Shown: positions 4,037 to 58,586 of the stretch, piece after piece | How positions within the stretch are numbered: position 1 is the stretch's first letter | Layout: each line of letters starts with the position of its first letter | Source of the DNA: Acanthopleura granulata | Lineage: Eukaryota; Mollusca; Polyplacophora; Chitonida; Chitonidae | NCBI GenBank assembly: GCA_016165875.1 | Contig: JABBOT010000080.1 | Location: 19,788,141-19,852,140 of the forward strand | DNA length: 64,000 nt | Direction: 5' to 3' | Program-made: the position numbers and the translations under genes | The notes under the pieces: model-generated | What the model was told of the DNA's origin: nothing | Seen by the model: only the letters and a program-made list of their open reading frames with translations | Database searches by the model: none

Positions 4037-6400
4037 TCAAAATATCTGCACTCTGTTGTTGCCGAAATCTACCACAATGATAAGACCGTCGGGAGAAACA
4101 CACAGGCCCGAGGGTCGGTCCAGTTGCCCGGGACCACTCCCAGCAGTGCCAAACTTACAGAGGAAGTTACCGTTAGGCAGAAACACTTGGATACGGTGGT
4201 TTCTGGAGTCGGCCACGATGATGTTTCCCTCTGGGTCCACGGCCACCCCCTGGGGTCGCAGAAACTGACCATTAGCCGAGCCTTCAGTGCCCAGAAAACG
4301 GGCCGATTGGAAGTCTGGATGTATGACCAACAACCGGTGATTGTTGAAATCCGTGACGATCATGTAACCATCCGAAGTGAAGCACACGCCTCTGGGTGAA
4401 TCAAAATGTTTCCACAAGGCTCCTTCAAAGCCATACTTGTTGAGAAACTGACCATCCCCAGTGAAGAGCTGCACCCGATGATTCCGAGTGTCGGACACCA
4501 AGATTTTTCCCTCCGAATTCACCGCCACATCCCAAGGGTAGTTAAACTGGCCGTTTTTGTTGCCCTTTTCGCCGAATTTCAGAATAAAAGTGCCGTCAAA
4601 TGTGAAGAGCTGAACGCGGTGGTTATCCTTGTCCGACACGACAATATGTCCTTGGTTGTTGGTGGCCACGCCCGCCGGCCGGTCAAACTCGCTGTTCCGA
4701 GAGCCAGGGGAGCCAAACTTATGGTGGAAAGTGCCGTCTGGATTGAACACTTGAACTCGGTTATTGGATCGATCAGCCACGATGATATAACCATCACGAT
4801 CACAACAAATCCCCCACGGTCGGCACAGTCGCCCTTGTTCCTCCCCTTCCCCTCCAAACTGTAACAACATAGGTCCCACCGTAGCGTAGTTCCTCCCACT
4901 GCGCACGTCCACTGTAAACGGGCTGTCGTGAATGTGTTTCCCTCGAATCGTCACAGATATGACATGCTTGCCTTCAGATTGTGGATGATAAGTAACGGAA
5001 TAAGTCCCATTTTGATGATCGATGACGTCATTTCGGTACAGCGCCCCCTCGGGACTCTGTATGATCACTTCCACCGGATCGCCCCCGACCACCCGGGTTT
5101 CACCATGGTGATCTCGTGAATGAACGGTGAAGGTGGCCAGCTTGCCCTTCAGTGCCCTTTTCAGGCCATCACCTGTCCCTATACAATGGGGAGCGTAACC
5201 GCTGCTGTTGATGAAGCCTATCTTAGAGATGGCGTTGTACAGCGCCGAATCAGGTGGAGTAAAGCTGATGTTTTCGTCCTCGTGTGGTTGCAGGTGACCG
5301 CGCAACCGCCGCATCTGCTGGATTTCGGCCACCATGCGGTCTTTAGTGTGCAAAACGTCCACGTCACTCCCAGTGTGCAGTAAGCTTTCCACCTGAGCCA
5401 CTGTCCTCGTTAAAGAGGCCAGGCCGTCCTTGAGGTCATCAATCTGTAGGTGCAGTGACTTTCCTTTCACTTGTCTTATCTTTTCCACCCTCCGGAGCAG
5501 CTCTCGCTCTCTCTCCTCTAGGGCCGTGATGTAGCGCCGGATGGTGGCCCGGATTTCCCCCGACACGGACTGGGACCGGCTCTCCACCTCCTCGGCCATC
5601 CCCTGACTTAGCTGGATGCTCTCCTCCAGAGCTTTGATGCCCGCTTTGGCGTCGGCTAGTAACTTTACTGTGACAGTCTTAGAGTTCTCTATTGCATCCT
5701 GAAGGTAGATGAAACTATGACCGATATGGTCGACCATAGTGCATTCTCTGCAGATGGGCTGAGCACACGTGTCGCAATATAGCCGTAACACTTCGTGCTC
5801 ATGGCGATCACAGTAGCTGGGGGGTCGGTCCGTCAGAGATAAATACTGGATAGGGGAGGACAGATTAGGGGAAGGAGCCATACTGTGGTGAATACCATTG
5901 CCGGCCGTAGACTGATGACTAGCTGGTCGTAGCGTTTCGATATGGTGATCTTTTGTTAGTCGGACTCGTTGGTGCGCCCTGACACAATTTCCACACAGAT
6001 ACTCGCTACAGTTTTGACATAGGGAAGTGGCCTCGCTGCCCTCGTCACAGGAGTTGCACCAGCGAGCGACCTGCCCTCTGCTCGAGTGCACGGTACGCTC
6101 CGAACCCCCGGGATCATAATCGTCCTCCTGTGAAACCACCACGTCGAGAATATTGCTAATAAACATGTTTGATGGTAGACTGTCGACTCCTGCTGACGTG
6201 AGGGGGACTACGGTGTGACAAGAGGGACACTTGAGGCATAGTCCTTTACCGAGGCCGGTGGGGTGGGATCGGCTGACCAGCCCGGCTAGGCAGTTCCTAC
6301 AGAATGTGTGAAGACATGGCAGTAATCTAGGGTCGGTGAACCTTTTCTGGCACACAACGCAGGAGAGTTGTTCGCCGACCGAATCCGAGTACGCTGCCAT
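4037..6400 (-). CDS. TRIM71: E3 ubiquitin ligase / RNA-binding TRIM-NHL protein, TRIM71 (LIN-41)
   Basis: From ATG at 6400 this is a 787-residue protein. In order: RING (C14, C17, C29, H31, C34, C37, C58, C61), B-box 1 (C115/C118 to about H152, ending in the TRIM71-typical NCVRAHQRVRLTKDH), B-box 2 (C197, H200, C209, C212, C217, C220, H225, H228), coiled coil about 235-370, filamin/Ig domain about 410-500, and six NHL repeats about 515-787 ending NNRVQIF. It resembles vertebrate TRIM71 over its length, except that the vertebrate RING has long insertions absent here. Family members bind mRNA hairpins through NHL, repress translation or stability, and sustain early developmental states. The gene body is a single exon. 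The start is uncertain: the frame stays open to a stop at 6681-6683, another in-frame ATG lies 81 nt upstream (6481-6479), and an upstream exon joining at a CAG near 6578 is possible. TRIM2/TRIM3 are less likely, since they lack this B-box 1 signature. Confidence 0.96.
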   Translation of the reverse strand: MAAYSDSVGEQLSCVVCQKRFTDPRLLPCLHTFCRNCLAGLVSRSHPTGLGKGLCLKCPSCHTVVPLTSAGVDSLPSNMFISNILDVVVSQEDDYDPGGSERTVHSSRGQVARWCNSCDEGSEATSLCQNCSEYLCGNCVRAHQRVRLTKDHHIETLRPASHQSTAGNGIHHSMAPSPNLSSPIQYLSLTDRPPSYCDRHEHEVLRLYCDTCAQPICRECTMVDHIGHSFIYLQDAIENSKTVTVKLLADAKAGIKALEESIQLSQGMAEEVESRSQSVSGEIRATIRRYITALEERERELLRRVEKIRQVKGKSLHLQIDDLKDGLASLTRTVAQVESLLHTGSDVDVLHTKDRMVAEIQQMRRLRGHLQPHEDENISFTPPDSALYNAISKIGFINSSGYAPHCIGTGDGLKRALKGKLATFTVHSRDHHGETRVVGGDPVEVIIQSPEGALYRNDVIDHQNGTYSVTYHPQSEGKHVISVTIRGKHIHDSPFTVDVRSGRNYATVGPMLLQFGGEGEEQGRLCRPWGICCDRDGYIIVADRSNNRVQVFNPDGTFHHKFGSPGSRNSEFDRPAGVATNNQGHIVVSDKDNHRVQLFTFDGTFILKFGEKGNKNGQFNYPWDVAVNSEGKILVSDTRNHRVQLFTGDGQFLNKYGFEGALWKHFDSPRGVCFTSDGYMIVTDFNNHRLLVIHPDFQSARFLGTEGSANGQFLRPQGVAVDPEGNIIVADSRNHRIQVFLPNGNFLCKFGTAGSGPGQLDRPSGLCVSPDGLIIVVDFGNNRVQIF

Positions 6401-6415
6401 GAGCGTGGTAATACA

Positions 6416-6423
6416 TGAGGTAG
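6416..6423 (-). promoter_or_regulatory. let-7 seed-match 8-mer just upstream of the TRIM71 ATG
   Basis: TGAGGTAG on the plus strand gives CTACCTCA in the transcript, 16 nt before the 6400 ATG. If translation starts upstream the site is in coding sequence. Seen directly; function is inferred. Confidence 0.35.
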
Positions 6424-6625
6424 AGACTGGTTTAACACTCACGCCATTTCGAAAGAGCCCCTGGCCCAAAGCGTCAGGCATACCATTGCTGATCGGAGCT
6501 AGGCCGGGTTGGCTCCAGCCCAACCGCTCGTCCCGACACACATCGAAGCCCTCAATGGTGACTTTGAACGGAATATTCCCTGAGAGTTTGGCCGATTAGA
6601 GTCACCACAAACCATAGCAATTTTA

Positions 6626-22254: not shown

Positions 22255-22680
22255 GCGGATGGTTGGTTTGTGTGATTTCAGATGGAAATTTGCTAAGGTT
22301 TCCATTCTGGCTGATGTGATTTCAGATGTAGGTTTGCTGAGGTTTCCGTTCATGCTGATGTGACTTCATATGTAGGTTTGCTGAGGTTTCCGTTCATGCT
22401 GATGTGACTTCATATGTAGGTTTGCTGAGGTTTCCGTTCATGCTGATGTGATTTCATACGCTGGTTTGCTGAGGTTTCCATTCTGGCTGGTGTGGTTTAA
22501 GATGTAGGTTTGCTGAGCTTTCCATTCTGGCCTATATGATTTCCGATGTAGGTTTGTAGAGGTTTCCATGCTGATAGATGTGATTTCAGATGCAGACTTG
22601 CAGAGGTTTGTAGTTTGGCAGATGTTGGTTGGCCGAGCTTTTCATTTTGACTTCTATCTAGGGCTTTGCTGATGTCCAAG
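22255..22680. repeat. minisatellite, 44-bp period
   Basis: Units of the type TGTAGGTTTGCTGAGG-TTTCC-TTCATGCTGATG-TGATTTCA repeat at exactly 44 bp from 22327 to 22459 and become diverged on both sides, about nine units in all. Confidence 0.85.
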
Positions 22681-37200: not shown

Positions 37201-38739
37201 CCTTGCCTCACGTGAACGTGCGTGAACTCGTAGGACTCTTGAAATGCTGACTTCGTTTATATACCCAGCTGCTGATTAAACTGATGTGTAGAGTATGACA
37301 TGTACAGCGCCTTATTCACAGTCACGGCAGCCAACCCCAAAAATAAAAATTGACACTTGATCATCAAAAAGAATCTGGCCAGTTACCCAATGGTTCAATG
37401 AACTGGAAGAGTTTGTCGACGATGGTGAGGGCGGCCCTGTACTGGTGGAGTCTGTACAGCAGCACTGCCTGGTTGTAATAGATGATACCATGGTCCACAT
37501 CCTCCACACTCTCCGCATTTTCTGATGGGATATGAGACTGTCAAATAAAGGAAGAGAGTTACCACATTTCTCTGACAGGATGAGACAGTCAACTAAAGAA
37601 AGACAGTTACCACATTTTCTCAGGGCATGAGGGACTGTCAAATAGACAAGGTACACAGTAACCACAATTTCTCACAGCATGTGAGATTGTCCAGTAGACA
37701 AGGCACACAGTTACCACATTTTCTCACGGGATGTGGAACTGTCAAATAGACAAGGTACACAGTTACCACATTTTCTCCCAGGATGTGAGATAGTCAAGTA
37801 GACAAGGCACACAGTTACCACATTTTCTTATGGGATGTGGAACTGTCAAATAGACAAGGTATATTTTCTCACGGGATGTGAGATTGTCTAGTTGACAAGG
37901 TACACATTTACCACATTTTCTTACGGGATGTGAGACTGTCAAATAGACAAGGTACGCAGTTACCACATTTTCTCACAGGATATGACATTGTCAAGTAGAC
38001 AAGGTACACAGTTACTACATTTTCTTACGGGATGTGGGACTGTCAAATAGACAAGGTACGCAGTTACCACATTTTCTTACAGGATGTGAGACTGTGAAGT
38101 AGACAACCTACACAGTTACTACATTTTCTTACGGGATGTGGGATTGTCAAATAGACAAGGCACACAGTTACCACATTTTCTCACAGGGTGTGAGATTGTC
38201 AAATAGACAAGGTACACAGATACCACATTTTCTCACAGGATGTGAGATTGTCAAGTAGGGAAGGTACACAGTCACTACATCTCCAGCAGTATTCTGACAG
38301 GATGTCTGATTGACAAGTAGACAAATGTATATAATAATTTGAATTACGATTAATGTCATACTCAAGAATGTTTCAATTAAATAATACGATAACAGCCAGT
38401 TTTATAAGTGGTGTCTGCTTAAATTCTGATGTACTATGCATATATGTATAAACTCACCAACTGACAGACTTTGCTCAGTGCTTGCCTAAACTCTGCTGTT
38501 TTACAGAACTTTGAACTGTAGAATTCGGTTACAGCTTTATTGTGCACAACTTTGGGGTCATTTGACCTTTGACTCAAGAGCTTGTTCATTGATTGGCTGC
38601 ATTGTTCATATTGTGACTTCTCAAACTCCTGCATGGCTTGACTGGCCACCTCCCTCTGGTGTTCAGTAACAGGTGGTAGAGAAGGGGCAGGCAACTCCTG
38701 CTTCTCAGCCTGATCATCTTGCTTCTGCATATCTGTCAT
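25270..38739 (-). CDS. CNOT10: CCR4-NOT transcription complex subunit 10 (spliced gene, 15 coding exons)
   Basis: Coding exons, 5' to 3': 38739-38458, 37537-37387, 36632-36571, 36035-35844, 35127-35044, 34255-34000, 32396-32194, 31866-31751, 30900-30769, 30471-30397, 29626-29513, 28932-28802, 28080-28012, 26972-26851, 25342-25270. All junctions are GT-AG and the phases agree (0,1,0,0,0,1,0,2,2,2,2,1,1,0,1), giving about 687 codons against 744 in human. Diagnostic blocks include [84 protein letters not shown] and [17 protein letters not shown], the TPR-like helices of CNOT10. The protein joins CNOT11 on the CNOT1 N-terminus in the cytoplasmic deadenylase complex. The poorly conserved linker (exon 4, [14 protein letters not shown]) is acidic/polar as in orthologues. 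The C-terminal ~50 residues and the stop were not found with confidence. Confidence 0.95.
27496..27676. mobile_element. MITE with perfect 21-bp terminal inverted repeats (CNOT10 intron)
   Basis: 27496-27516 (AGATATGATTTCCTACACTG...) is the exact reverse complement of 27656-27676. Inner sequence ACTCAAACTCGTGACT / AGTCATGAGTTCGAGT extends the pairing imperfectly. No coding capacity. It touches the next MITE at its right end. Confidence 0.8.
27685..27854. mobile_element. MITE family M, copy 1, perfect 20-bp TIRs (CNOT10 intron)
   Basis: The ends TCTTCAACCTTTTCAACCAC and GTGGTTGAAAAGGTTGAAGA are exact reverse complements, 170 bp end to end. Two further copies lie in other CNOT10 introns. Confidence 0.85.
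28370..28550 (-). mobile_element. SINE family A, 5'-truncated (CNOT10 intron)
   Basis: Starts with TTATTTACTTATTTATTTGA, then the GGTGTTTTACACC end and the GGAGGAAACAGGGCAGAGCCC body; ends near the GGCTGGAGAGGA block without the tRNA head. Confidence 0.85.
30943..31292 (-). mobile_element. tRNA-derived SINE (family B), CNOT10 intron
   Basis: Minus-strand reading has a tRNA-like head (CACTGTGGCCTGGTGGTCAGAG) and a body with TGAGTGGGTGGGGTGTCATG. The 3' end is the complement of TTACATTGTACTACACAATT. Four related copies occur elsewhere in the window. Confidence 0.8.
32466..32590 (-). mobile_element. degenerate SINE fragment (CNOT10 intron)
   Basis: TTGTTCCACACTGTACTCAAGATCTTTCCAC resembles the family A 3' end, followed by AAACCACCAACCTTGGGAAAGTTACTGACAAAC, resembling the family E body. 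A mosaic or two fragments. Confidence 0.5.
32605..32816. mobile_element. MITE family M, copy 2 (CNOT10 intron)
   Basis: Ends are TCTGCAGCTTTTTCAATTAT and GTGGTTGAAAAGGTAGAAGA; the interior shares AAAATGATTTGTTTGT and TTTATGCATACA with copy 1. Diverged TIRs indicate an older insertion. Confidence 0.75.
35189..35365 (-). mobile_element. SINE family A, 5'-truncated (CNOT10 intron)
   Basis: TTTGTTTATTTATTTGATTGG, then GGCATTATGGTGGGAGGAAACC and CATGACCATATGCAG; it ends near a diverged GTACGG-like block. Confidence 0.8.
36069..36475 (-). mobile_element. SINE family A copy interrupted by MITE M, plus a second SINE tail (CNOT10 intron)
   Basis: The SINE 3' tail (TTTATTTATTTATTTGATTGG) is at 36072-36097 and its tRNA-like head (minus GACTGAGTTGGTTAGCGCGC) at about 36318-36432. 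MITE copy 3 occupies the gap and the central SINE body is missing. A further family A 3' end starts near 36434. Confidence 0.75.
36112..36300. mobile_element. MITE family M, copy 3, nested in a SINE (CNOT10 intron)
   Basis: Starts TTTTCAAACTTTTCAACCAT, ends ATGGTTGAAAAGCTAAGA, and shares AATAATGATTTGTTTGTGTGATT and TGTCAGAATGTTTCAAAATATTGG with copy 1. Confidence 0.75.
37538..38300. repeat. 52-bp minisatellite built from the CNOT10 exon 2-3 splice acceptor junction
   Basis: About 15 units, exact 52-bp spacing in the centre (for example 37706 to 37758). On the minus strand a unit reads CTTGTCTATTTGACAG then TCTCACATCCCGTAAGAAAATGTG. The real exon junction at 37537/37538 reads TTATTTGACAG then TCTCATATCCCATCAGAAAATGCG. 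The array fills the intron right up to the exon. Most units keep the AG acceptor and many also carry a GTAAGA/GTGAGA donor 11 nt later. Confidence 0.9.
38325..38405 (-). mobile_element. degenerate SINE family A 3' end (CNOT10 intron)
   Basis: ATTAATGTCATACTCAAGAATGTTTCAATTAAATAATACGATAACAGCCAG is a diverged version of the family A 3' region. It lies directly beside the 52-bp array. Confidence 0.5.
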
Positions 38740-38763
38740 CCTTGCTAGAGCAAATATTCAGAT
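38740..38763 (-). other. CNOT10 5'-UTR part of the first coding exon
   Basis: A strong acceptor (TTCTGTTGTGGTTTCAG) ends at 38764, and the exon runs from 38763 to the ATG at 38739 (context GCAAGGATGA). This shows that at least one upstream noncoding exon exists. Confidence 0.7.
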
Positions 38764-40707
38764 CTGAAACCACAACAGAAAAGCATAAAACTTCTATAAC
38801 TCTAACCGCAAGAAAGTTTCCATCTATTTTGGCAGGTTTAAAAAGTATTAACTGTAAATCAAATTAACAAGGATTGGCTGTATGGCTCAAATCTGAAAAG
38901 TGAAGGATTTCCTTCATGGAAGTGGCACTGATATACATGTTCTATCCTTAATTTAATAGGTTAGTTATACACTATATCACATTACTACATTTTAGGATTC
39001 TAAATAGAATGAGTCATATGTTCACCTAATGAAATATTTTTTCCATTGATTCAACTGTTGTGCCTTTGACATTCCAAATGTACTAATTTTTATGACCTCA
39101 AACAAACAGCTTTCTCTATGGGGACTGCACCCTTCATACTTTAAATAATTAACTTTTGACTTTTAAGAGCACTGTTATCAGCTGGTATCCCCTTGTGTAA
39201 CACCTATACAGTGATTTTCGTGACTGTTTCAGGAGAGAAGATAATTTTTACAACAAGAATGTTGAGTTCTCCATTTAAGAAAATAACTAGCTGAGGAGGT
39301 ACATGTACAGTGAAGTGGGCCCACTTTTCGCACACAGAACACCCCCATCACTTTCTGCCATTCACCTTGGAGTGATTGATTCCCCAGTTCAAATCCATGC
39401 CTATCAAATATCCTCTCTCCAGACAATGAAATTCTAAATAAATCAATTTTGTACACCTTTCCTTTATATCATTCTTCTTGTTAGGCCCACAGGCCTTTTC
39501 GTAAAAAACAGGCTAATAATCCAATTAAATTAAAGGTTTACTTGGCTGAGCTGCTTAATAATCCTGATACAGACCTACAGGGGATAAACATTCCTTATTC
39601 CTGCACATTGCATCATGGGGCTTACTGTACAGTGTATTTTGAGTTGAAATGCAGTAGAAAAATATTATGGTGACCATCACGTTCAGGTCAACTATTGTCT
39701 TACAGGACAGTTTCAGAGAGTGGATCAGCTAAGTGATATAAAAGGTAATATACCCATGCTAAAAGATAAGATAACAAAAATTTGACCAAATGACCCAAGG
39801 ATGGTTACTGAACTAACATATCTACTACCATTGTTGCAAATGTCGCCCTGGGCCTAACTTTTTATAGGACGACACTGGAAACCCAGTTCCCGGATCAAAT
39901 TTTCCCCCATCTATGCTGTTACTCACCACCAACAAGATATCACTCACTCATATGAACATGCTACTCACCACCATGTTGTTACTTGTACAAATCCACGCAA
40001 CAATATGCAACCATGGCCATCACAGGGGATTTGAAATGTGACAATGAAGACAGAAAAAAGTTGTGGAAAAAATAAGGTTAGGGACTGGAAACCTGCAGTG
40101 TTTCTACTTGACGACTGGTGCAATTGTGGCAACGCTCGGGATAAACTGCATTGTGTGAGCTCAACCTCCAACTTTGAACCAGGTGACAAGTGCAATGATG
40201 GTACATACATGAACATCAACTTTGTTCAATATCAATCGGCACTGTTGAGACCAAATTTACTAGTTTAAAGAATCATTTTTTCCAGATTTTCTGACTCACC
40301 GTGTAGTTGGTAACCATTTGTCCAACAACAGATCTTTCGGTAAAGTAATTATTTGATGATAATTTCAATGTTCGCCTTTTCAACAACTGACAAGACTGTC
40401 TAAAAGTAAACGATCATTCCATATGATGTCTAATTCAGTTAAATTAAACGTTGGGTATCTTTTCAACAATTTATGATATTTTTTGAGGCATGTGCGTATC
40501 AGACATTGTTGAAAATAAACATCAACATCCAATTTAACTGAACTATTTGTGGTCCAATTTTCGTTATCTTATTGTTTACCGACCGTCACAACTTGATGAC
40601 TAGGGCTTCGCGCAAAATTTTCCAAGCATAACCCTACGTTAATGCTGAAAATATTACCGCATTCAATAAATATTCATTAAAGAAATACATCAATCTCGAT
40701 TATTTAC

Positions 40708-40900
40708 CTGAAAAGAAAAAGCGGGCAAATGAGCGCTGAAAGTTTCAGGGCAGTCTCATCATTCGTCTGGAGAGCTCTTCAGGGGGAACTACTCGGGTGA
40801 TTCTGGTCTGCAAATTGCAGTCACCACTAGATACCGTTGCGCAGAAGTAAAACTATAGAAGGAATAGAAAGATAGACGGCGTCTCCTTGTAGAAGGCGGG
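40708..40900 (-). other. candidate CNOT10 noncoding first exon and promoter region
   Basis: A good donor (TTTTCAG followed by GTAAATAAT) ends a candidate exon at 40708, 1.9 kb upstream of the acceptor at 38764. The 5' end is unknown; 40.75-40.90 kb is more GC-rich than its surroundings, as a promoter might be. Confidence 0.4.
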
Positions 40901-41139
40901 TTGCAATGCTGACGTATTTATACAGTGTTGCCTCACTGCAGATTGATTGCAGACTGACACACCAGACACCTGAGCTGTCGTCATAGCCGCCTTGTCAGAT
41001 ACTTTACGATACACGGATCTTTAAAAACATGTGAACATCTACCAGTCTGGAAACACGCCTTTAAATGAGGTTTAGACGTAAACGCAATCAGAACAAGTTT
41101 TCTCGAAGGATTGTTGAGCAACTTATATAGGTACTTGTA

Positions 41140-41408
41140 ACGTGGTCGCATACTAAATTCCTCCGAAGTGCTGTAGGCTCACTGCGACTATCTGGCCCTC
41201 GGGCGATTACGAGGTCGCGTGTTCGCAACAATTCAGCTCTGAGCCGTTTCGGCTGCGGCTTTAAGTCAAGAGATTTGTCAGGTACCTGGCGGTCGGTGGT
41301 TTAGGCCACTAGGCCCATTCCGGCCTCTGCGCTTTCCACCACCCATGGACCTGGTCGCCTAACTACCACGGCGTTAGGCCTAAATACCAATCAATCAATC
41401 AATCAATC
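41140..41408 (+). mobile_element. tRNA-derived SINE with (AATC)n tail (family C)
   Basis: A head-like CACTGCGACTATCTGGCCCTCGGGCG / GAGGTCGCGTGTTCGC region leads to a body ending CGGCGTTAGGCCTAAATACC and the tail CAATCAATCAATCAATC. Confidence 0.65.
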
Positions 41409-41488
41409 TGTCGTTAGGGCATCTAATTACAATACCAATGTGCGGGCTCAGTGCCGGCCCAGCAGATGTGAAGAGCATAACTGTATGT

Positions 41489-41855
41489 GGATTTTGAATC
41501 GTCTCGGTGGCCTAGTTGTTAAAGCGTCCGTGTCCAATTCGGGAAATCCGGGATCATTTTTGGGTAGGATGAGTGAAAAAAAAAATGGCACTTGTTGCTG
41601 TCTCACTTGGCTCTTGGCGCACAGAGGTTACAGCAAAAAAACACGATAGGTAAGCCCGGTTTCAGTATAATGTGACTGAGTGGGGTGTCATGTCTGGTGT
41701 CTTCGGAATGACGTTCCAGAGGCAGTAGCACATTGGTGGCATGGATTCGCCCTGCCACCAGGAGACACAGCATATCTACATTCTAAGGACTCTTAGTGGT
41801 CATATGACTGAAAAATTGTTGAGTACGACGTAAAACGCAAACATACATGCATACA
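41489..41855 (+). mobile_element. SINE family B, full length
   Basis: tRNA-like head (TCTCGGTGGCCTAGTTGTTAAAGCG), body (ATAATGTGACTGAGTGGGGTGTCATG) and 3' end (AAAAATTGTTGAGTACGACGTAAAAC) followed by CATACATGCATACATACA. Confidence 0.85.
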
Positions 41856-42026
41856 TACACGTGTGGATTTCCAACACTCATATGATTAGTCGACGAGAAC
41901 TTCAGTTTACAATTACCGGTACAATACTCTCGATCCTGATTCGAAGCATGGGCTACTTAATTGACTATACAATCCATAATATTTGCATTTTCCCCTTTTT
42001 TTTAGGTAAGCATATATGTACATGCT

Positions 42027-42392
42027 CGGGTGTTACATTGTACTCCCCTAGTCAACAATTTTTCAGTTATATGGCAAGGAGTCCTTATAAAATGTACATG
42101 CATGCACTGTGTGCTCTTGAGGCAGGGCGAGCCCATGTCGCCAAAGTGCTACCCCCTGACCGGAACATCATGCCGAAGACACCAGACAAGACACCCCACT
42201 CAGTCACATTGTACTGACTCCGGGGACACCGGTCCTGTTTCCTTGCTCTAATATCTCAGTGCTGAGATCCATGCGAGGCGGTATGACGTCCCATTTTTAA
42301 AGTCTTTAGTATGACCCGACCATAGACTGATCCCGGATCTCCCGGCCTCGAGGCAAACGCTATAATCACTAATCCACCGAGATGGTCTCTCC
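42027..42392 (-). mobile_element. SINE family B, full length, inverted to the previous copy
   Basis: Plus strand starts GTGTTACATTGTACTCCCCTAGTCAAC and ends CACTAATCCACCGAGATGG, the complement of the family B head. With the copy at 41489-41855 it forms an inverted pair 170 bp apart. Confidence 0.85.
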
Positions 42393-42524
42393 ACATAAGA
42401 TTGGTTAAGCCAGTTAAGTCTCCGTCACGAGCAGTATGCAGTGCGTCACGTCATGTCTGTTATCATATGCAAATAGCGTTCCGATCAGCGTCTTTCAAGT
42501 AAACAAACCATTTTGTGGAATAGA

Positions 42525-42910
42525 TGTCAAGCACGAAGCAAATAAACATGATCCCTTTGTAAAAGCGACATCAAACTCCAAGTGTCTTAGCAAACAAGAT
42601 CACTCCTTGGAAGCGTCATACTGAAGTCAGGTTGTAAAGAAAGAAACAAGAATCAAGACCATTTTGTGTAAGCGAATTCAAACTCCAAGCAAACAAGGCG
42701 GAGCTTCCTTGAGTTGCTTGAGCGCTTATGCGCCATCGAACTCCAAACAAACAAACAAGGCTGCTCAAGCGCCATCGAACTCCTAACAAACATATAACAT
42801 CACTTTAAGGAAGCGCCATCGAACTCGAAACAAACAAACACGATCAATCTATGGAAGCGACATCGAATGCCACACATACAAACAAGGCAACTTTGTGGAA
42901 GCGAATTAAT
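42525..42910. repeat. degenerate minisatellite (GAAGCGCCATCGAACTCCAA-ACAAACAAACAAG unit)
   Basis: Units of roughly 40-60 bp share GGAAGCG(C/A)CATCGAACTCC followed by AAACAAACAA(G/C)A. About eight diverged copies. Confidence 0.7.
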
Positions 42911-43039
42911 AACAGTTTATTATTTGACGAACTTTTCAATATGTGACGCACAGATGTGCACAGCACAACGGTGAAAGGTAAATGGAAGGTTAACGGGCAC
43001 GCGGACGTCGTCGACAGCTTATTTTTCTTCATTTATGTC

Positions 43040-43215
43040 ATTGTGCTCAGTGTGCTCAAGAATATTTCACTCATACGACGGCGGCGTCAGCATTATGGTG
43101 ACAGGAAAACGTGAGGCGAGAGGAAGCCCACGACCATCCGCGGGTTGCAGCGCTAATCCACTCACCCACGTAGGCACCATCCGCTCATGGTCACCAATTA
43201 GACCTCGCGAAATTG
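43040..43215 (-). mobile_element. SINE family A, partial
   Basis: GTGCTCAAGAATATTTCACTCATACGACGGCGGCG, CAGCATTATGGTGACAGGAAAAC and CCCACGACCATCCGCGGGTTG are shared blocks; the head is diverged. Confidence 0.8.
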
Positions 43216-43427
43216 TACCAGAGGATGGTGTGTAGGCCTACGCCCTGCATGCCCCTTTCTGACGTTTTATTTTTGGCTAGTCATGTGGTGCCACTTTTCA
43301 GGTTGATGGACTTCTGTTTTGAGAATTTAGACCAATCTTATTTGATTTACCTTATGTATTTATCATCTTCCCAGCAAGTGGCGAAACTTGATGACGTTTA
43401 CCTTGATATTTGTTTATTCGAGATTAT

Positions 43428-43545
43428 ATTTATTTATTTATTTGATTATTGTTTAACCCGATATTCACGAACGGGGGAAACCGGAAAGCTCGGGGTAATC
43501 TACCTCCCTTCAACAAGCTGGTGATAAACTTTTCCGCACGTGTGA
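43428..43545 (-). mobile_element. SINE-like element, family E
   Basis: TTTATTTATTTATTTGATTATTG tail, then GGGGGAAACCGGAAAGCTCGGGGTAATC and CTTCAACAAGCTGGTGATAAACTTTTCCGCACG. Related bodies are at 45338-45430 and 48236-48310. Confidence 0.6.
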
Positions 43546-43859
43546 ACTGGGCCTACAGATAATATACATACATGTGCGAAAAACTAGCGAAAGACTTACG
43601 TGCAATTGTACATTATAATTTAACGAACGCGTACAGTGTCACACGAACGCCGATTTCCGCTTATTGTTAGGAAGAAAAGTGAAAGTGGGGAAATGTACAA
43701 ATTCTCAGTCAAAGGCCTGTTTTGAACCCGCAAAACATGGATTGTCCTAGTGATTGGTAGGAAATCTCCTTCCCGATCAACCGATTCGGCCATGGAGACC
43801 CTTTTTCTTTCAGAGCTCATTCAAATAAATAAATAAAAATAAATGTAAAAATAAATATT

Positions 43860-45330
43860 AAACAACACAACATGATTTATAAATTAAAATTGTCAACCAT
43901 TTATTTAATGCAGAAGTACGACGTTAAATTTAGATGTCATCGTCACGTGGCATGTCGTTCTTGACCTAGATCAAGGTGCAGTTTTTGTCTCGGCTTTGTC
44001 TGCGTTGATTTCCATACAAATTCGACCGGGAACAAAAAGCACTTTTGGAAATCCCACGAGAGATGGGCACTTTGGAGTTGACTGACGATCAGTTTTCTCT
44101 GCAACGGGCGTTACAATTGTAGGAAGAGGTTAGCTAGAGCTCCACATTTTACTTGACAAAATACTCGTATATTTAAACCTAGCTAAGTGTAAACATGTCT
44201 TAGGTAGCGTACTGTCGCCTTTGTAGTGCAAACGTAACGTTTGTAGTTCAGTCGTTACGTAAGCCATGTCTACACTCGGCTAATTTAAACCATAACATTT
44301 ACATTAACCTGCAAAAATGTTACATGACAAGCATATTTCAAGACAATCATATTCCATTACAAGATGAAAATATTCCCTTAATACAAAAATTTAACCAAAA
44401 AAGTGAAATGTTGTTCAATCTAAGCGTCTAATCCGACATTCGTATACCATTCGTTCCAGGTCGATAATGGTAAGATCCATTTCTCAAACAACCCAAAACA
44501 CCAGTTCCCAAAGGAATATGTAAAAATCAATACATTAGTAGCAAATACACTTGATAACAAGTAAAAGAGGAACAGTCATCAGTAAGCAGTAATGTAGGGA
44601 AGACAGTTTATACTAAGCATGACATTCAGTTCAGACTTCAACCGTAGCTAGTGGTCCATAGAAAATTATCCGTTCAAATCTAGATAAGGGACCTCAGTGG
44701 CACTTTGATTGTTACTGTTCAGAAAAGTACCAAGTTGATGTAATGAAGTGGGATTCTTATCCGCCCATAAGAAAGGTTAAGAAGAATTATATGTCGTGTA
44801 TAGCTACGGAATCAATCCATCACCAGACATCCTGAACGCTCTCTCCATACTGGCCAACAAAACTCTTTATTTAGAAAATTTGATTGAAGGCGTGTGCATG
44901 GAATATCTTTCACTCGCTATGTTTTGGATTAATAACTCGTGACACTGATTAAAATCATGATATTTTATGCAGAATCTGACAAATGCTACGTAGCAGGACA
45001 TACACTGTGTACTTGTATGTATTCGCCGGAGCGACGTTTCCCTCATGGACATTTCCCCTTACATGGGCACCTGAACATAGCGGTACAAAAACACAGGGGG
45101 AAATGTCCAGATCCACACACGTCATATGTAGCACACTTAGAGACATGTATAGGTCTACTATCAAAATATGGATCATTTAAAAAGTCAAAATGGAAAATGT
45201 CCGCCTCTTTCATAAAGATTTTATACACACAAGACAACATAAAAATGTTAGGCAATATCTTGACCCCAAAACTTTGTCACGGAAAAATGTTTGTCTTGAT
45301 TGTTGTTTTAGACGCAGTAATCAAGAAGTT
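43860..45330. other. no recognisable gene
   Basis: AT-rich DNA without supported exons. A minus-strand open stretch at 45176-44955 follows a possible phase-1 acceptor downstream of the CAP gene, but the product matches nothing I know. Confidence 0.4.
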
Positions 45331-45337
45331 GTCACTT

Positions 45338-45430
45338 ACAAGATGGTGACCGGTATTATGATTTGAGAAAACCGGAATACCCGGCGTAAACCACCGACCT
45401 TCAGCAGGTTACTGGTGAACTTGGTAACTT
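45338..45430 (-). mobile_element. SINE-like element, family E fragment
   Basis: GATGGTGACCGGTATTATGATTTGAGAAAACCGGAATACCCGGCGTAAACCACCGACCTTCAGC shares blocks with 43428-43545 and 48236-48310. Confidence 0.5.
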
Positions 45431-45710
45431 GATGCCTATCCTAATCGTGATATCTCGATGTAGGTAAGACAAAAAAGCAGAAGTAGTTTTATTTAATTTT
45501 GATCGACTGACATTCGTCTGAAAGTCATGTTTTTCAGTTTGTGAGGCCATAGAAGGTCACGTGTATCATGGGTTTTCACGTTGTTTCTTGAATGAAGCTT
45601 TCAAGTTTTGTGTTTTCACATGGAGTACTTGCTTTGGATGAATTTTATAATTTTTTTGGCCTATGGTTACGAAGGGATAAAACAAGCCCTTCTGGGTTTC
45701 ATTGCCGCGT

Positions 45711-45860
45711 AATTTATTTATTCACTTATTTATTTATTAGATTGGTGTTTAACTCAGTATACTCAAGAATATTTCACTTATAGGACGCGACCAAGATTAT
45801 GGTGGTAGGAAACCGAGTAGAACCCGAGAGACATCCACAACCATCTGCAGGATTAATGAT
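45711..45860 (-). mobile_element. SINE family A, 5'-truncated
   Basis: TTATTTATTAGATTGGTGTTTAACTC, AAGAATATTTCACTTATAGGACG and GGTGGTAGGAAACCGAGTAGAACCC are typical; the head is missing. Confidence 0.8.
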
Positions 45861-45959
45861 TTTTGTTTTTGTAATTTGTTGACGTTAATCAATGGGTTGA
45901 AATGTAAGTAAAGGAAGATTCTGTAAAAGAACGACTGGTTAGTTTAGAGTATATCTTAC

Positions 45960-48900
45960 CACAAAGACCGTCGACACATACATCTGTCAGCAGACAGCTG
46001 GAACACGCCGGACCGGTCTGGTACGGTACGCTGCTCCCCTTGTTTGTACTGATAACAGAGAGCGAAAAGAGTAAACTGTTCAGAGCAGGCTAAGGTACAG
46101 TCCCACAATACTGGAACAGGTGAGACCGGTCTTGTCTTGTACGGTACGCTACCCCCCCCCCCCTTTTTGTTTCTTCTGATAATAGAGAACGAAAAGAGTC
46201 AGCTGTTCAGAGTTCAAGCGGGTTCGGTCTGATACGGTACACTTCTCTCCTTGTACTGATAATGGAGAACGAAGAGAGTAAACTGTTCACAGCTGTCTAA
46301 GACACGACCCCACAATACTGGAACAGCCTGAATCGGCCTGGGAACGAAAGGAGTAAACTCTTCAGAGTAGGCTAAGATGCCACCCCACAACACTGGAACA
46401 GGCGGGACCGGTTTGGTATTGTACGGTGTGTGTTATATCTACTGCACATATACTTATCACAGTATTTAATACACTGGGCATGTGTTTTTACCCATAAGGA
46501 AATTCAAAATTTTCTTTAAATATCTAACAGAGAAATTTGTTGCCTATACAAGCAACCATATCCTATGTTCATCCAATTTGTATGTCACAAGTGGGAAAAA
46601 TAGTCAGTATCTTGCCAAATATCGCTGTTTTTTCCCGGGCACTCCGGTTTCCTCCGGCCATAAAACTGACCGTCATCAAATGAGTAAAAAAGTCTTGTAT
46701 ATAAACCGTTAAACTGCAATCAATCGCTCAGCTAGGCAATAAAATACGTACTTTGAATGAGGCATACTTTCGCAGGTTTGTAATAACAAGCAATAAAATA
46801 AGTACTTCCGGTGAGGAATACTTACGCAGGGTTGTAATAACAAGTAATAAAATAGGCATTCCTCATGCTAATTGTCTTCATAGATTTACAGAAGTAGATA
46901 CCGCATCCTACATCAGACGATTCTGCCAGAACCAACTGGGAAAGAAATGTAAAATTTATTAATTCATTTACTGATCGATTGATTGATTGACTTGTGCTTT
47001 TAATTGTTAGATCTGGTCAAAAATAAAAAAATAAAATTGGATTTCAAAGCGTATAAATTAAATCTACACACCCACTTGAGTGCATTGTCAACGCATCCAC
47101 CAGAGTGCTTTGCCCACACATCCACCTGAGTAAGGTGCTCATGCACCAGGGAACCACCTGAGTGCAGTGTCCACCCACCCACCTGAGCAGCATTCATGAG
47201 TAATGTTCACGCACCCATATGAGTGCTTTGTCTACATACCCACCTGAGTTTAATGTTCACCCCCCCCCCCCACCTGAGTGCCTTGTCCACATACCTACCT
47301 GAGTGCAATGTTCACACAACCACCTGAGTGTAACGTCTACACACCTCCTTGAGTGCCTTGTTTATATACCCACCTGAGTGTAATATCTACACCCCACCTG
47401 AGTGCATTGTCTATATACCCACCTGAGTGTAATGTCCACAGACGTGTCCGTCGCTACAAGAGTTTGTTTTGTAATCGTAATTCTCTCTCTCCGAATACCA
47501 ATTCAGAACCGCTCTACTCCCGTTGAAGAAATCTACAATAATCAGAGAAGCCGGTATTAAAAGTGAAAAGTCTTTCTTAATTTAGCCTTACGAGACGAAG
47601 TATTTTTTTAAATGTATATATTTGTGGCTTTATTAGGTCTGGAGAGATGCATGTGTAGGTCGTGACCCAGTGGTTAAGGTGCTTTTCTGCCAGTCTCTAG
47701 GTCACAAGAGACAGCGATCCAATCCCAGTCTCTGGCAGGAAATCTGTTACCCCAGTTGTAGTGTTCTGGTAACCTTGGTGCTATTTACGTGGTCCTGAAT
47801 GAAGTTAGATAGGGATCATCCACTGTCCACCATGTTATACACAGATACTGAGACCTGCAGGTGAAAATCTGAGCGTTATAAGCGGGAACGTTTGTTAGGT
47901 ACATAAAACCATAAAATTGATGATGCAAAGTCGTTGCACCTATGACAAATACATGAATGTGTTCCTTCAACGGAAATTAAATTTAAATAATTTAATGTCT
48001 GGGCATCTGTTGAAACCTACACATGATATTATTCATTTCGCTTATTCGATTTTGAATCCATATTAAAATGCCCCTTCTTTCGGGGATGACCCGGCTTCAT
48101 CTAGTGCAAACTGTTTAAATAAATAAAAACCCTTGGATGGATCCTGTATGAAGTAGAGCGTTTTCGTAGTTACAATCAGTGCCATGGTATTCCTGCAAAA
48201 ATTTGGGTAAAGTCACAAACACACAAATGGAGGTTTACGGGTGGGGGAAACCGGGGTGCCCGGAGTAAAGAGCCGTCTGACTCCAGGTACCTGACAAACT
48301 GCTTGACTTAAAGCTACAGTCGAAGCAAGGAGATGGTGAGAGACAAATAATGCGATCTCATCCGCTGACCGTTAACATGATTCAAATGTACCTACATGGC
48401 TGTGCTGATAGGTTCTCCCCGTAATCGGTGCCATAATTATGCTTGAAGTCACATCTTTCTGTCCAGGCCTGCGCCGAGTGTTCCAGGGTGGTATTCCATC
48501 GCTGGAAAGAGACTTTTACTGAATAGATAAGCATAACACATCATGATATAGAAGTACGGTGGCCTATATCATCAAGTACGGTAGGCCTGTTTCCCTTTTT
48601 TCTTAAGCTTTGCAATCGTTTCTTTGGTTTCCAACCAGCCGAAAAGGTTTCCACCAGGGTGAAAAGCTTTCCACCTGGATGAAAAGGTTTTCGCCCTGGT
48701 GGAAACCGAAGAAAAAGATACAAACCTTAAGAAAAAGGAAAAATGTTGTAAATAAGCCACCGCCTAAAGGAACGTGAAAAGAGCATTCTCTAGTTGAAGC
48801 GAGAGACATAGCTAAATCTACAAGACGCACGCTACAGACAACAGGACAATACTCTGCACTTGCGCTGTATCGCGCCACGTTGCTCACTGGCTTAAAAAGT

Positions 48901-49681
48901 CCTAAATCGGAATCCAGGTCATTACCAAAATTTAACTGATAGGTACTTCTCCCAAAGTCAAGCTGTCCACAGAATTTCATCCAAACCTTCCCATAACTTT
49001 TTCCCCTAAGCTTGTCGACGGCCTGACAGACAGTAAAACGATGCAGACAATAATGTATGTCGTAGTGTGGGGTTAGGGCTGGAGAAGTGGAAGGAAACAG
49101 TAGCTCTACTGGCTGTGACAAAAAAAATCACAGAGTGGATCACAAACTTATGTATGTATAACGGACAATGAACAATCAAAATTGATTATCAATACTATGA
49201 AATATGTTTCATGATTTATTGGTACCAAGTTTCGTTGAGATTGTTAAAAACTGTAAGTGTAGCATTTTGAAATAAATTTTAACATATATTTGATAAACTG
49301 ACAGACGGACAACCAATCATTGAAATTAAAAATCGATACATCATTTATGTACCCTGATGTAGTCCAAGTTTCCTTGAAATCGGACAAAAATTGTAGGAGG
49401 AGAGGCGTTTCGAACGAAAAGGTAAAAAAGCGCCTGATAGACAGACAGCCAGCCAGACGGACAGACGGACGACGGAAATCTTGCTAGCACATAATCTCTT
49501 CATAACGAATACCAGTAGAGCTAAAAAGGGAGCATTAGCCCACGGGTGGACTTACCAGGCGCCGCATGCCCGCTGCTGGTATCTGTTGACGCAGTTCATT
49601 ATGTAACGTTAGAAGCTCGTCCTTTTCCTGCTGAGTGAAACCCTGCTTGGATGTGTTCCTCATCCAGCCCTCGAAGATACC
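45960..49681 (-). CDS. secreted CAP-superfamily protein (CRISP/GLIPR-like), 5 exons seen, both ends incomplete
   Basis: Exons, 5' to 3': 49681-49556 (GFTQQEKDELLTLHNELRQQ), 48501-48396 (AQAWTERCDFKHNYG...YGENLSAQP), 47532-47423 (AVLNWYSERENYDYKTNSC...CGHYTQ), 46935-46826 (DVGCGIYFC...AYFITCYYNPA), 46048-45960 (VPYQTGPACSSCLLTDVCVD). All are GT-AG with matching phases (0,1,0,2,1). This is a complete CAP fold of about 180 residues: LHNELR, the cavity residues (H in CDFKH, E in GENL, E in WYSE, H in GHYTQ) and the C-terminal CNY-PA...PY-TGPACSSC hinge. The usual GHYTQVVW is GHYTQLVL here, so the conserved Trp is lost. The signal-peptide exon and any exon after 45960 were not found. CAP proteins are usually extracellular and bind lipids or channels; the role here is unknown. 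The exon 2 donor (CAT then GTAGGT) is the weakest junction. Confidence 0.88.
46049..46435. repeat. minisatellite (~75-113 bp units) copied from the CAP exon 5 acceptor junction
   Basis: On the minus strand the real junction reads CTCTCTGTTATCAG then TACAAACAAGGGGAGCAGCG TACCGTACCAGACCGG (written in two parts). Upstream in the same intron are about four diverged copies, for example TTCTCCATTATCAG then TACAAGGAGAGAAGTG, which would encode YKERSVPYQTEPA and then stop. Copies begin near 46112, 46217, 46318 and 46392 on the plus strand. Confidence 0.85.
46636..46682 (+). mobile_element. SINE-like family E scrap
   Basis: CCCGGGCACTCCGGTTTCCTCCGGCCATAAAACTGACCGTC matches the inverse of the family E body. 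It lies in the intron between CAP exons 4 and 5. Confidence 0.45.
46763..46880. repeat. 55-bp tandem duplication of the CAP exon 4 donor junction
   Basis: CGCAGGGTTGTAATAACAAGTAATAAAATA at 46826 (exon 4 end, minus ...TGTTATTACAACCCTGC then GTAAGT) is repeated at 46771 as CGCAGGTTTGTAATAACAAGCAATAAAATA. In the intronic copy the donor is GAAAGT, so it is inactive. Confidence 0.85.
47055..47422. repeat. minisatellite (~27 bp) copied from the CAP exon 3 donor junction
   Basis: The exon ends (minus) GGACATTACACTCAG then GTGGGTATAT. The intron then has about 14 units of the form GGACA(T/A)(T/G)(A/G)CACTCAG followed by GTGGGT, GTAGGT or close variants. The exon part encodes the GHYTQ signature. Nearly every unit retains a consensus CAG|GTRGGT donor. 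Confidence 0.9.
47640..47950 (+). mobile_element. tRNA-derived SINE-like element (family D)
   Basis: A head-like GTCGTGACCCAGTGGTTAAGGTGC, a B-box-like GCGATCCAATCCC and a body ending CATAAAACCATAAAATTGATGATG. It lies in the intron between CAP exons 2 and 3. Confidence 0.55.
48236..48310 (-). mobile_element. SINE-like family E fragment (CAP intron)
   Basis: CGGGTGGGGGAAACCGGGGTGCCCGGAGTAAAGAGCC followed by AGGTACCTGACAAACTGC matches the family E body. Confidence 0.5.
48610..48720. repeat. short minisatellite with inverted halves (GGTTTCCACC / GGTGGAAACC)
   Basis: Four units of the type AGCCGAAAAGGTTTCCACCAGGGTG-AAAAGC, about 20 bp each, followed by the reverse complement CCCTGGTGGAAACCGAAG. 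It can form a hairpin. It lies in CAP intron 1. Confidence 0.6.
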
Positions 49682-54714: not shown

Positions 54715-55165
54715 TTTCGTGGCCTGGGCCCTGAATAATCTGGGCTCTGAATAGTATGGGCCCTGAATAGTCTTGACCTTGTATACTCTTGGAACTACAT
54801 GGTGTGAGTTTTCTGTCGTGTATCATCTACGTTCTGTGTGGTCTGGGTTCTGTATATGGTTCGGGTATATTGAATGGTCTGGGCTTTGTATATGGCTTGG
54901 GTATACTGTATGTTCTGGATTCTGTATGGTTTGGGAATACTGTATGGGCTGGATCATCTATGGACTGGTGACCGCATGACCTAGATCCTGGGTACTGTGT
55001 GGTCAATGTCCTGTATGATGGTACGGGTCTCCTATATCAAATGGATCCTATGTGGTATGGGTTCTGATTGGCCTATGTCCTGTATGGTATGGGTGTCCGG
55101 TATCAACCGGGACCTGTATGGCCTGGGAGTTCTGTATGAATTGGGTCCTGTATTTTTTGTATTGC
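54715..55165. repeat. degenerate minisatellite (~18-20 bp, TCTGGGTTCTGTATGG-like)
   Basis: Phrases such as CTGGGCTCTGAATAGTATGGGC, TCTGGGTTCTGTATATGG and CCTGTATGGTATGGGT repeat for about 450 bp with indels. The open frames across it are by-products. Confidence 0.75.
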
Positions 55166-56592: not shown

Positions 56593-58586
56593 AATACAAA
56601 ATATTTTACTTACCGGTATATATGATTACTGTCAGTTTCAACAGTGAAGAGAACACTGTAAAACCACCTGCCATTCGGCTCATGATATTTGTGTGCTATA
56701 TCAGCTGGGGATTTGAACAAGTGACATCTGGGTTTCAAATTCACGCTTCTACCACTAGGCTGAAAATTCCTTCCAGCAAGGAGGTCGATAGGGCATACAT
56801 TCCACCCTGTTACATATGACAAAAACCAGAGCTTTTTACAGAAAAAAAGCTTCTGAACATGCCATTAAGCAAAAATCAAATAAAGAAATAAATTCATATG
56901 CCGGAGTTTCCGATTGTTTGTGGCGAGCAAGGCAACCGAACGCGCGGAAACAGCCGAGAGCCCACTCGCAACTGCGCCTAATCGTGTTACACAGGGCTTA
57001 ACCATGGAAAAGCTGCTGCGCATAAGCGTGTGATAGGGCTTAATCGTGGAGAACTGCTGGGCATAATCATGTTATAGGGCTTAATCAAGGAGAACCGCTG
57101 CGTATAATCGCATATCGGTGCAAAATCGTGCTAAAACGAGGCGCATAAAACATGTTATAGAAATAAAGAATGAGCAACAGAATTTACATGTTACAAAGGC
57201 CAGCTAATGTAAAATACAGAAATATTGAAGTGTTTATGTCAACAAACATATTGTGTAGTCAAATTAGAGCCTAAAATATTTTGACAAGATCCTGTTTTAA
57301 ATTCTGTCTCTCATCCAAACATGTCAGATCCAAACATTCTCATACAGTGCTTAATTATGTGTAGTTCGTCAACTCTTGCACCTTGGAATAAACTATTCAA
57401 CCACGTGGACAGTTTATCTATTGAATATAGAGGCCTACAACATTTGGAGAGTAATAAGGTATGAGCACTTTTCAAATTAATCAGAATTTTTAAAACCAAT
57501 AAGGCCTAGAGAAGTTGTCTGTTAGATGTGTTTTTTAAGATTTTCGTTCAAGGCTTTATATATAACGGTTTTAAGATCTTATGTTAAATGTATTTGGTTA
57601 AATGCCGACGGGTATCTGCAGTATTTAGCGATCAGCCAAAAACTTCCGCTGGGTGGCACTCAGGTGAAAAATTTAATTCAGCACGGTAAACCCAGTGCAT
57701 GGTAACGGAATTAATATACATCGTTTGAGTTTTAACGCCTTTGTTTACCGGCCTCACATGGAAAATAATTGTTCCATAAAGCTATGGGTTCCATCTTATT
57801 GAAGATAGTGCTACATTACATACCCGGTTACGTATAATGAGCAGAAATACGCTATGCATGCGATCTATACACAGGCCTATGACGATTACGTGTAATTATT
57901 TGTTTTTGCATCATGGTTATCATCCCATTTTGCATCTGAATAAATGTGTCACACAGTTATAATTAACCCAGTGCACACTCTCTGTATATTTTGGCTATAA
58001 ATGGTTTCAATACAACGTGTGGCATTCAGGTACACACATCCTGTAGCCGGCTTTCGCACATCATACACCGACAAGTAAGATACAATGTGTGATGTATGAA
58101 TTCGTAGGCCTAAATATACAGGCCCTGTAGAGTGTTCGCCAATATTGGTCTCATAATGGTACTTTCTAATGGTTATCAGATTTATTACACACAGGGAAAA
58201 GTTATGACAAGCGTGCAATAATGGCTTACGGGAAATAGGCTTAAAGGTAGTGTGCGTGTAACAGAAAATCGAACACAACAGTTTGGCAACATGCGTGAGA
58301 GTTACATGGCACTGAGATTGCGTAGTCCAACAGGCTTAGAGCTCTGGTACAAGCATTCATGGGAGATCTACAACGTTTACACTTGCCAAGGGAGTGGCAG
58401 TAAGGACATATGAATTCCGGCGAATTCGTGCCGATGTAAAAGAACAGAGGAAACTCTTTCTACTGTATAGAGACAGATGTTTTTAACGTTTAAATAGGGA
58501 CCAATACGTCGCATCTGGCACTGGCATAGATGCAGAGCGGAACTCTTTATTGCCTGGAGGCTAGTTTCGCTTTCGCCATTCAAACT

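Follow-up and report, generated by a model that had tools for sequence, protein, structure and literature searches.

Tandem repeats lying across exon-intron boundaries have been named "mirages" in amphioxus, where they are described for Adh3 and the globins BflGb6 and BflGb9 (PMC3087553); PGBD5 was added as a host, and TnC is cited, in PMC3902484. According to the available parts of these two papers, mirages occur at 5' and 3' boundaries, have unit lengths of 10-160 base pairs (bp), and keep AG or GT in many, but not all, copies. Reverse transcription polymerase chain reaction points to regular splicing, and BflGb6 haplotypes vary in copy number (PMC3087553, in the sections available). The stretch of DNA considered here, 64,000 nucleotides from Acanthopleura granulata (contig JABBOT010000080.1, positions 19,788,141 to 19,852,140) and hereafter called the window, contains minisatellites at four splice junctions of two genes, and a fifth array was found at a BARX-class homeobox gene elsewhere in the same genome. 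Judged by structure, all five are of the same kind as the mirages. The initial annotation had stated that no named element family is known to behave in this way, and this is superseded by the available text of the amphioxus papers (PMC3087553, PMC3902484).

It is important to compare these arrays with those of amphioxus. As in the available descriptions of mirages, the tandem units straddle the exon-intron boundary in the four window arrays and in the BARX-class array, both boundary types are affected (two acceptors and two donors in the window, and the BARX-class donor), and AG or GT is retained in many, but not all, of the copies. The likeness is structural and does not imply kinship of the unit sequences. 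Unlike the amphioxus mirages, the present arrays belong to a lophotrochozoan and not to a cephalochordate, and they are known from the sequence of one assembly alone. The genome carries a KLTGP motif C-terminal to the homeodomain of a Hox gene (locus L007); this is the Lox5 parapeptide, given in the available part of PMC5431905 as present in lophotrochozoans and flatworms and not found in chordates. A single stretch of contig C3 (19.3-20.0 Mb) with 11 homeobox matches is interpreted as a Hox cluster. Among the matches listed from the open-licence literature, no mirage was reported from any host but amphioxus, and a text search of the literature with the repeat strings retrieved no paper. Within that scope, a structure reported so far only from amphioxus now has representatives in another animal superphylum, one of them clearly at a homeodomain exon; what makes it interesting is the new lineage of host and the BARX-class array.

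The four window junctions are all on the minus strand: the acceptor of CNOT10 exon 2 and, in a CAP-domain gene, the donors of exons C and D and the acceptor of exon E. The initial annotation had pointed to these four exon edges, two acceptors and two donors, and every one of them was confirmed. The predicted exon structures are backed by homology to CNOT10 and GLIPR1, the putative spliced frames being open and homologous. At each junction the first copy lies partly within the exon and the array then runs into the intron.

The first coding exon of CNOT10 (38458..38741, minus strand, MTDMQKQDD...KVCQL) is an open reading frame matching human CNOT10 (8bfi_B) with an E value of 1.2e-23. Exon 2 (37387..37537, minus strand) has the acceptor TTTGACAG/TCTCATATCC, the slash marking the junction here and below, and the donor ATTGG/GTAACT. 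Its start was set at TTTGACAG/TCTCAT because the join of exons 1 and 2 then aligns without gaps with human CNOT10 (8bfi_B). The acceptor array (37516..38280, minus strand), defined by a tandem repeat call and comparison of the copies, consists of 15 copies of a 52-bp unit with a higher-order period of 104 bp. The exon-edge copy includes the acceptor and the first 22 nucleotides of exon 2. Intronic copies are identical to it at 0.60-0.86 per part, and the CAG acceptor is retained in 6 of the 14.

The CAP-domain gene was recovered as five exons with GT-AG introns, spliced into a single open frame. The first joined translation matches PF00188 (7.4e-18), and the match of the translation to GLIPR1 (3q2r_A, E 1.4e-27) extends beyond the CAP domain into the C-terminal cysteine region. 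Exons A (49556..49681), B (48396..48501), C (47423..47532, end ...CGHYTQ/GTGGGT, last base 47423) and D (46826..46935, end ...YYNP-GC/GTAAGT, last base 46826), all on the minus strand, were assigned by GLIPR1 homology and the open spliced frame. The alignment continues through exon E (45960..46048, minus strand, beginning TNKGSSVPYQTGPACSSC..., first base 46048). For exons C-E it covers the exonic part of the repeat unit as coding sequence.

The exon C donor array (47066..47440, minus strand; tandem repeat call and site comparison) has a 25-bp unit and 13 CAGGTGG-like sites with at most two mismatches, the true donor included. Its exon-edge copy contains 18 exon nucleotides, and CAG/GT is intact at 9 of the 12 intronic sites. 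The exon D donor array (46736..46858, minus strand; tandem repeat call and copy comparison) has 2.2 copies of a 54-bp unit with 86% matches among copies. The unit holds 33 exon nucleotides, and the sole full intronic copy has a dead donor (CCTGC/GAAAGT). The exon E acceptor array (45998..46420, minus strand, coordinates by eye) is missing from the Tandem Repeats Finder output and consists of about 3.5 copies of units of about 112 bp, diverged with insertions and deletions. Its unit includes 51 exon nucleotides, ATTATCAG is kept in two of the three intronic copies, and their identity to the exon-edge copy is 0.75-0.82.

These introns bear on a proposal made in the amphioxus globin paper (PMC3087553) and the review PMC3443670, in the parts available, that introns are gained via tandem duplication of an AGGT-bearing segment. 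Applied here, the repeats would be remnants of the origin of the introns from a duplicated exon segment. CAG/GT does lie within some of the units, and the arrays share with this route (PMC3443670) a tandem duplication that takes in splice-site sequence. However, unlike what the available text of the review proposes, none of these introns has both of its ends derived from a single duplicated segment. In the CNOT10 intron and the CAP C-D intron, the edge opposite the array has no tandem similarity (scores 14 and 18), and the CAP D-E intron (46049-46825) carries a junction-spanning array at each end but with unrelated units. An origin of the arrays in intron gain is therefore very improbable.

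The fifth array lies at the exon donor of the BARX-class gene in locus L016 (G000:C25:2588454-2591624), where it occupies positions 1625-2108, approximately, of the reversed locus (minus strand). Among PDB entries, BarH-like 1 is closest to the homeodomain RRSRTVFTELQLMGLERRF...WYQNRRMKWKKQ (3.1e-32; next best 2.1e-19). Eight copies of about 63 bp are present, spaced by 46-68 bp and mostly by 63. The repeat comprises the last 50 nucleotides of the exon, coding for the homeodomain end, followed in most copies by the beginning of the intron; GT is kept in four of the seven intronic copies. The coding sequence of the homeodomain end recurs along the intron, so the exon is the source and the direction is from exon to intron. 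This clear additional case was first noticed in a repeat listing and was scored afterwards by the rule applied to all 30 loci.

Over the five arrays the splice signals are live in 21 of 37 intronic copies and lost in 16 (kept in 6/14 for CNOT10, 9/12, 0/1 and 2/3 for CAP exons C, D and E, and 4/7 for BARX). Retention of AG or GT in 21 copies despite their divergence might indicate that the arrays are kept for a role in splicing, as decoy sites, splice enhancers or a brake on expression. Such a role is improbable, given the 16 copies in which the signal is lost. In addition, the five units are mutually unrelated, none of the 10 pairs scoring above shuffled sequences at the 5% level. All eight of the CAP exon C alternative donors that were tested lead to an early stop, and therefore their use would probably be disfavoured by selection. 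Tandem repeats are also prone to misassembly, and the arrays were read directly from assembled contigs. However, the copies differ by about 12-40% where measured, unlike a stuttered assembly, and an artefact is hardly credible.

The position of the junction within the unit is informative about the origin of the arrays. The initial annotation described copies that start at the exon and extend only into the intron, and suggested as one option a mutational mechanism that nucleates at the junction, for example by an R-loop, by slippage during transcription or by copying from a splicing intermediate. The extension to the intron side alone was upheld, but the copies of the four window arrays begin 18-51 nucleotides inside the exon and not at its edge. 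The exonic share of the unit is scattered over the five arrays (0.42, 0.72, 0.61, 0.46 and 0.81), which argues against nucleation at the junction itself. The junction position does not differ from a uniform distribution (Kolmogorov-Smirnov test p 0.25, for the small number of n=5 arrays), and its spread fits random breakpoints and not edge seeding. Spliced messenger RNA and the excised intron are ruled out as templates for copying because the units carry exon and intron joined; an unspliced transcript could still have served.

In our opinion, the arrays are probably mirage-type minisatellites that arose by ordinary tandem duplication across junctions, were tolerated by splicing, and later expanded in the intron, with no need for nucleation at the junction. 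A chance tandem duplication would have captured an exon edge together with the adjoining intron. The working splice site would stay with the copy joined to the body of the exon, leaving the protein unchanged and the remaining copies spliced out. The longer arrays may then have grown by slippage or by unequal exchange between intronic copies, which are unconstrained by coding, and mutation would have made the copies diverge. The extension into the intron alone calls for no special mechanism: if the splice site attached to the remainder of the exon is the one used, the other copies are intron by definition. The striking exon-anchored, intron-only appearance is thus the expected outcome of neutral duplication plus splicing. 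The other option of the initial annotation, selection confining the growth of arrays to the intron side, was the sensible half of its proposal.

The incidence of the arrays was compared with random positions. An intron-side copy spanning the junction occurs at 4 of the 36 annotated window junctions and an exon-side copy at none of the 36; the remaining 32 junctions have no array (intron-side scores 12-22). The test spans 25 bases on each side of the junction and tolerates small edge errors, some CNOT10 edges being 1-7 bases off a canonical dinucleotide. Such a copy is found at 2.9% of random positions in the whole window (p 0.021) and at 4.8% of those at 25-50 kb (p 0.092), with controls that are autocorrelated within arrays. 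When the 9 arrays at 25-50 kb are re-placed at random, 1.13 fall on junctions (p 0.016); disallowing positions that would disrupt coding sequence lowers this to 0.69 (p 0.0026). For the whole window, with 19 arrays, the two figures are 0.86 (p 0.008) and 0.50 (p 0.001), and with the 10 arrays longer than 60 bp they are 0.73 (p 0.004) and 0.36 (p 0.0004). All of these p values are post hoc, the region having been selected for the coincidence itself. The excess in the window is real in the arithmetic, though the region was chosen for it. On this point the initial annotation is favoured within the window, where free placement puts fewer arrays on junctions than are observed.

The genome sampled comprises 606.5 Mb in 87 contigs, the window being 19.79-19.85 Mb of contig C83. 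Among homeobox-gene junctions elsewhere in it, an array was found at 1 of 176 (95% interval 0.01-3.1%), and the background is 1.3% of random positions, measured in 59 of the sampled loci. In detail, 55 donors and 47 acceptors had no array, 47 further acceptors none, 6 donors one, and a last group of 13 acceptors and 8 donors none. All 176 junctions come from homeobox genes, and a few of the loci are closely related paralogues (L088 and L090, for instance). Confidence is highest for the 55 donors where a homeodomain is split and for most of the 25 second-exon acceptors; the remaining junctions were chosen by a small splice-site matrix derived from the window. Before counting, 4 of the 59 donors at split homeodomains and 12 of the 59 acceptors lying upstream were excluded for low score, no candidate or insufficient flank; 25 of the 59 loci yielded a second-exon acceptor. 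On the same grounds 8 of 30 other acceptors and 24 of 30 donors were set aside and, in the last group, 12 of 20 donors together with 7 of 20 acceptors.

Junction arrays in the homeobox sample from elsewhere in the genome are therefore not above chance, and the rule shared among genes that the initial annotation proposed, an excess of junction arrays over random positions, was not borne out. Repeats occupy 3.8% of bases in the window, 7.3% in 30 kb of its flanks and 1.7% in the sampled loci (213 kb). The window is locally repeat-rich, and a genome-wide rule is not apparent within the limits of the homeobox-only sample. Active nucleation at junctions, for instance through R-loops, slippage during transcription or a transcript serving as template, would account for the concentration in the window, and the recurrence of a similar class in amphioxus (PMC3087553, in the part available) is in its favour. 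However, with sampled junctions at background and unit boundaries away from the junction, we consider it unlikely.

Several observations weigh against ordinary tandem duplication across junctions. The number of window arrays on junctions exceeds free placement (p 0.0004-0.016), and the frequency in the window is higher than in the homeobox sample (Fisher p 0.003). Three of the four window arrays are in one small gene, the CAP-domain gene, and two of these are in one intron. The use of the splice sites is deduced from protein homology and not from RNA. In addition, the human protein shows poor conservation of the initial residues of CNOT10 exon 2, and therefore the exon edge could instead have joined a pre-existing array.

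It is possible, though doubtful, that mirages are a recurrent class across bilaterians, and that in some genes, here the CAP-domain gene with its three arrays, they form or are retained far more often than chance would allow and supply cryptic splice sites and new exons. This genome offers a concrete test of whether minisatellites bearing splice sites supply new exons and introns.

Contig C83 also contains a row of 13 homeobox matches (G000:C83:21641984-21676431) with near-equal scores, on one strand and about 2.6 kb apart with one gap of 5.3 kb. Locus L094 holds part of it, and two frames there encode nearly identical protein. The row is probably a homeobox macrosatellite. Its layout, we presume, resembles that of DUX4/D4Z4.

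A scan of the window against Rfam gave no match at gathering scores. Further minisatellites of the window lie away from annotated exons, at 22271-22609, 42730-42904, 54724-55153 and 56993-57109. Diverged interspersed repeats, identified by eye, are located at 41500-41860, 43040-43170 and 45730-45850; one has a tRNA-like head, and they are probably similar to short interspersed elements. On the minus strand at 4037-6595, a long TRIM-like open frame contains RING, B-box, filamin and six NHL stretches.

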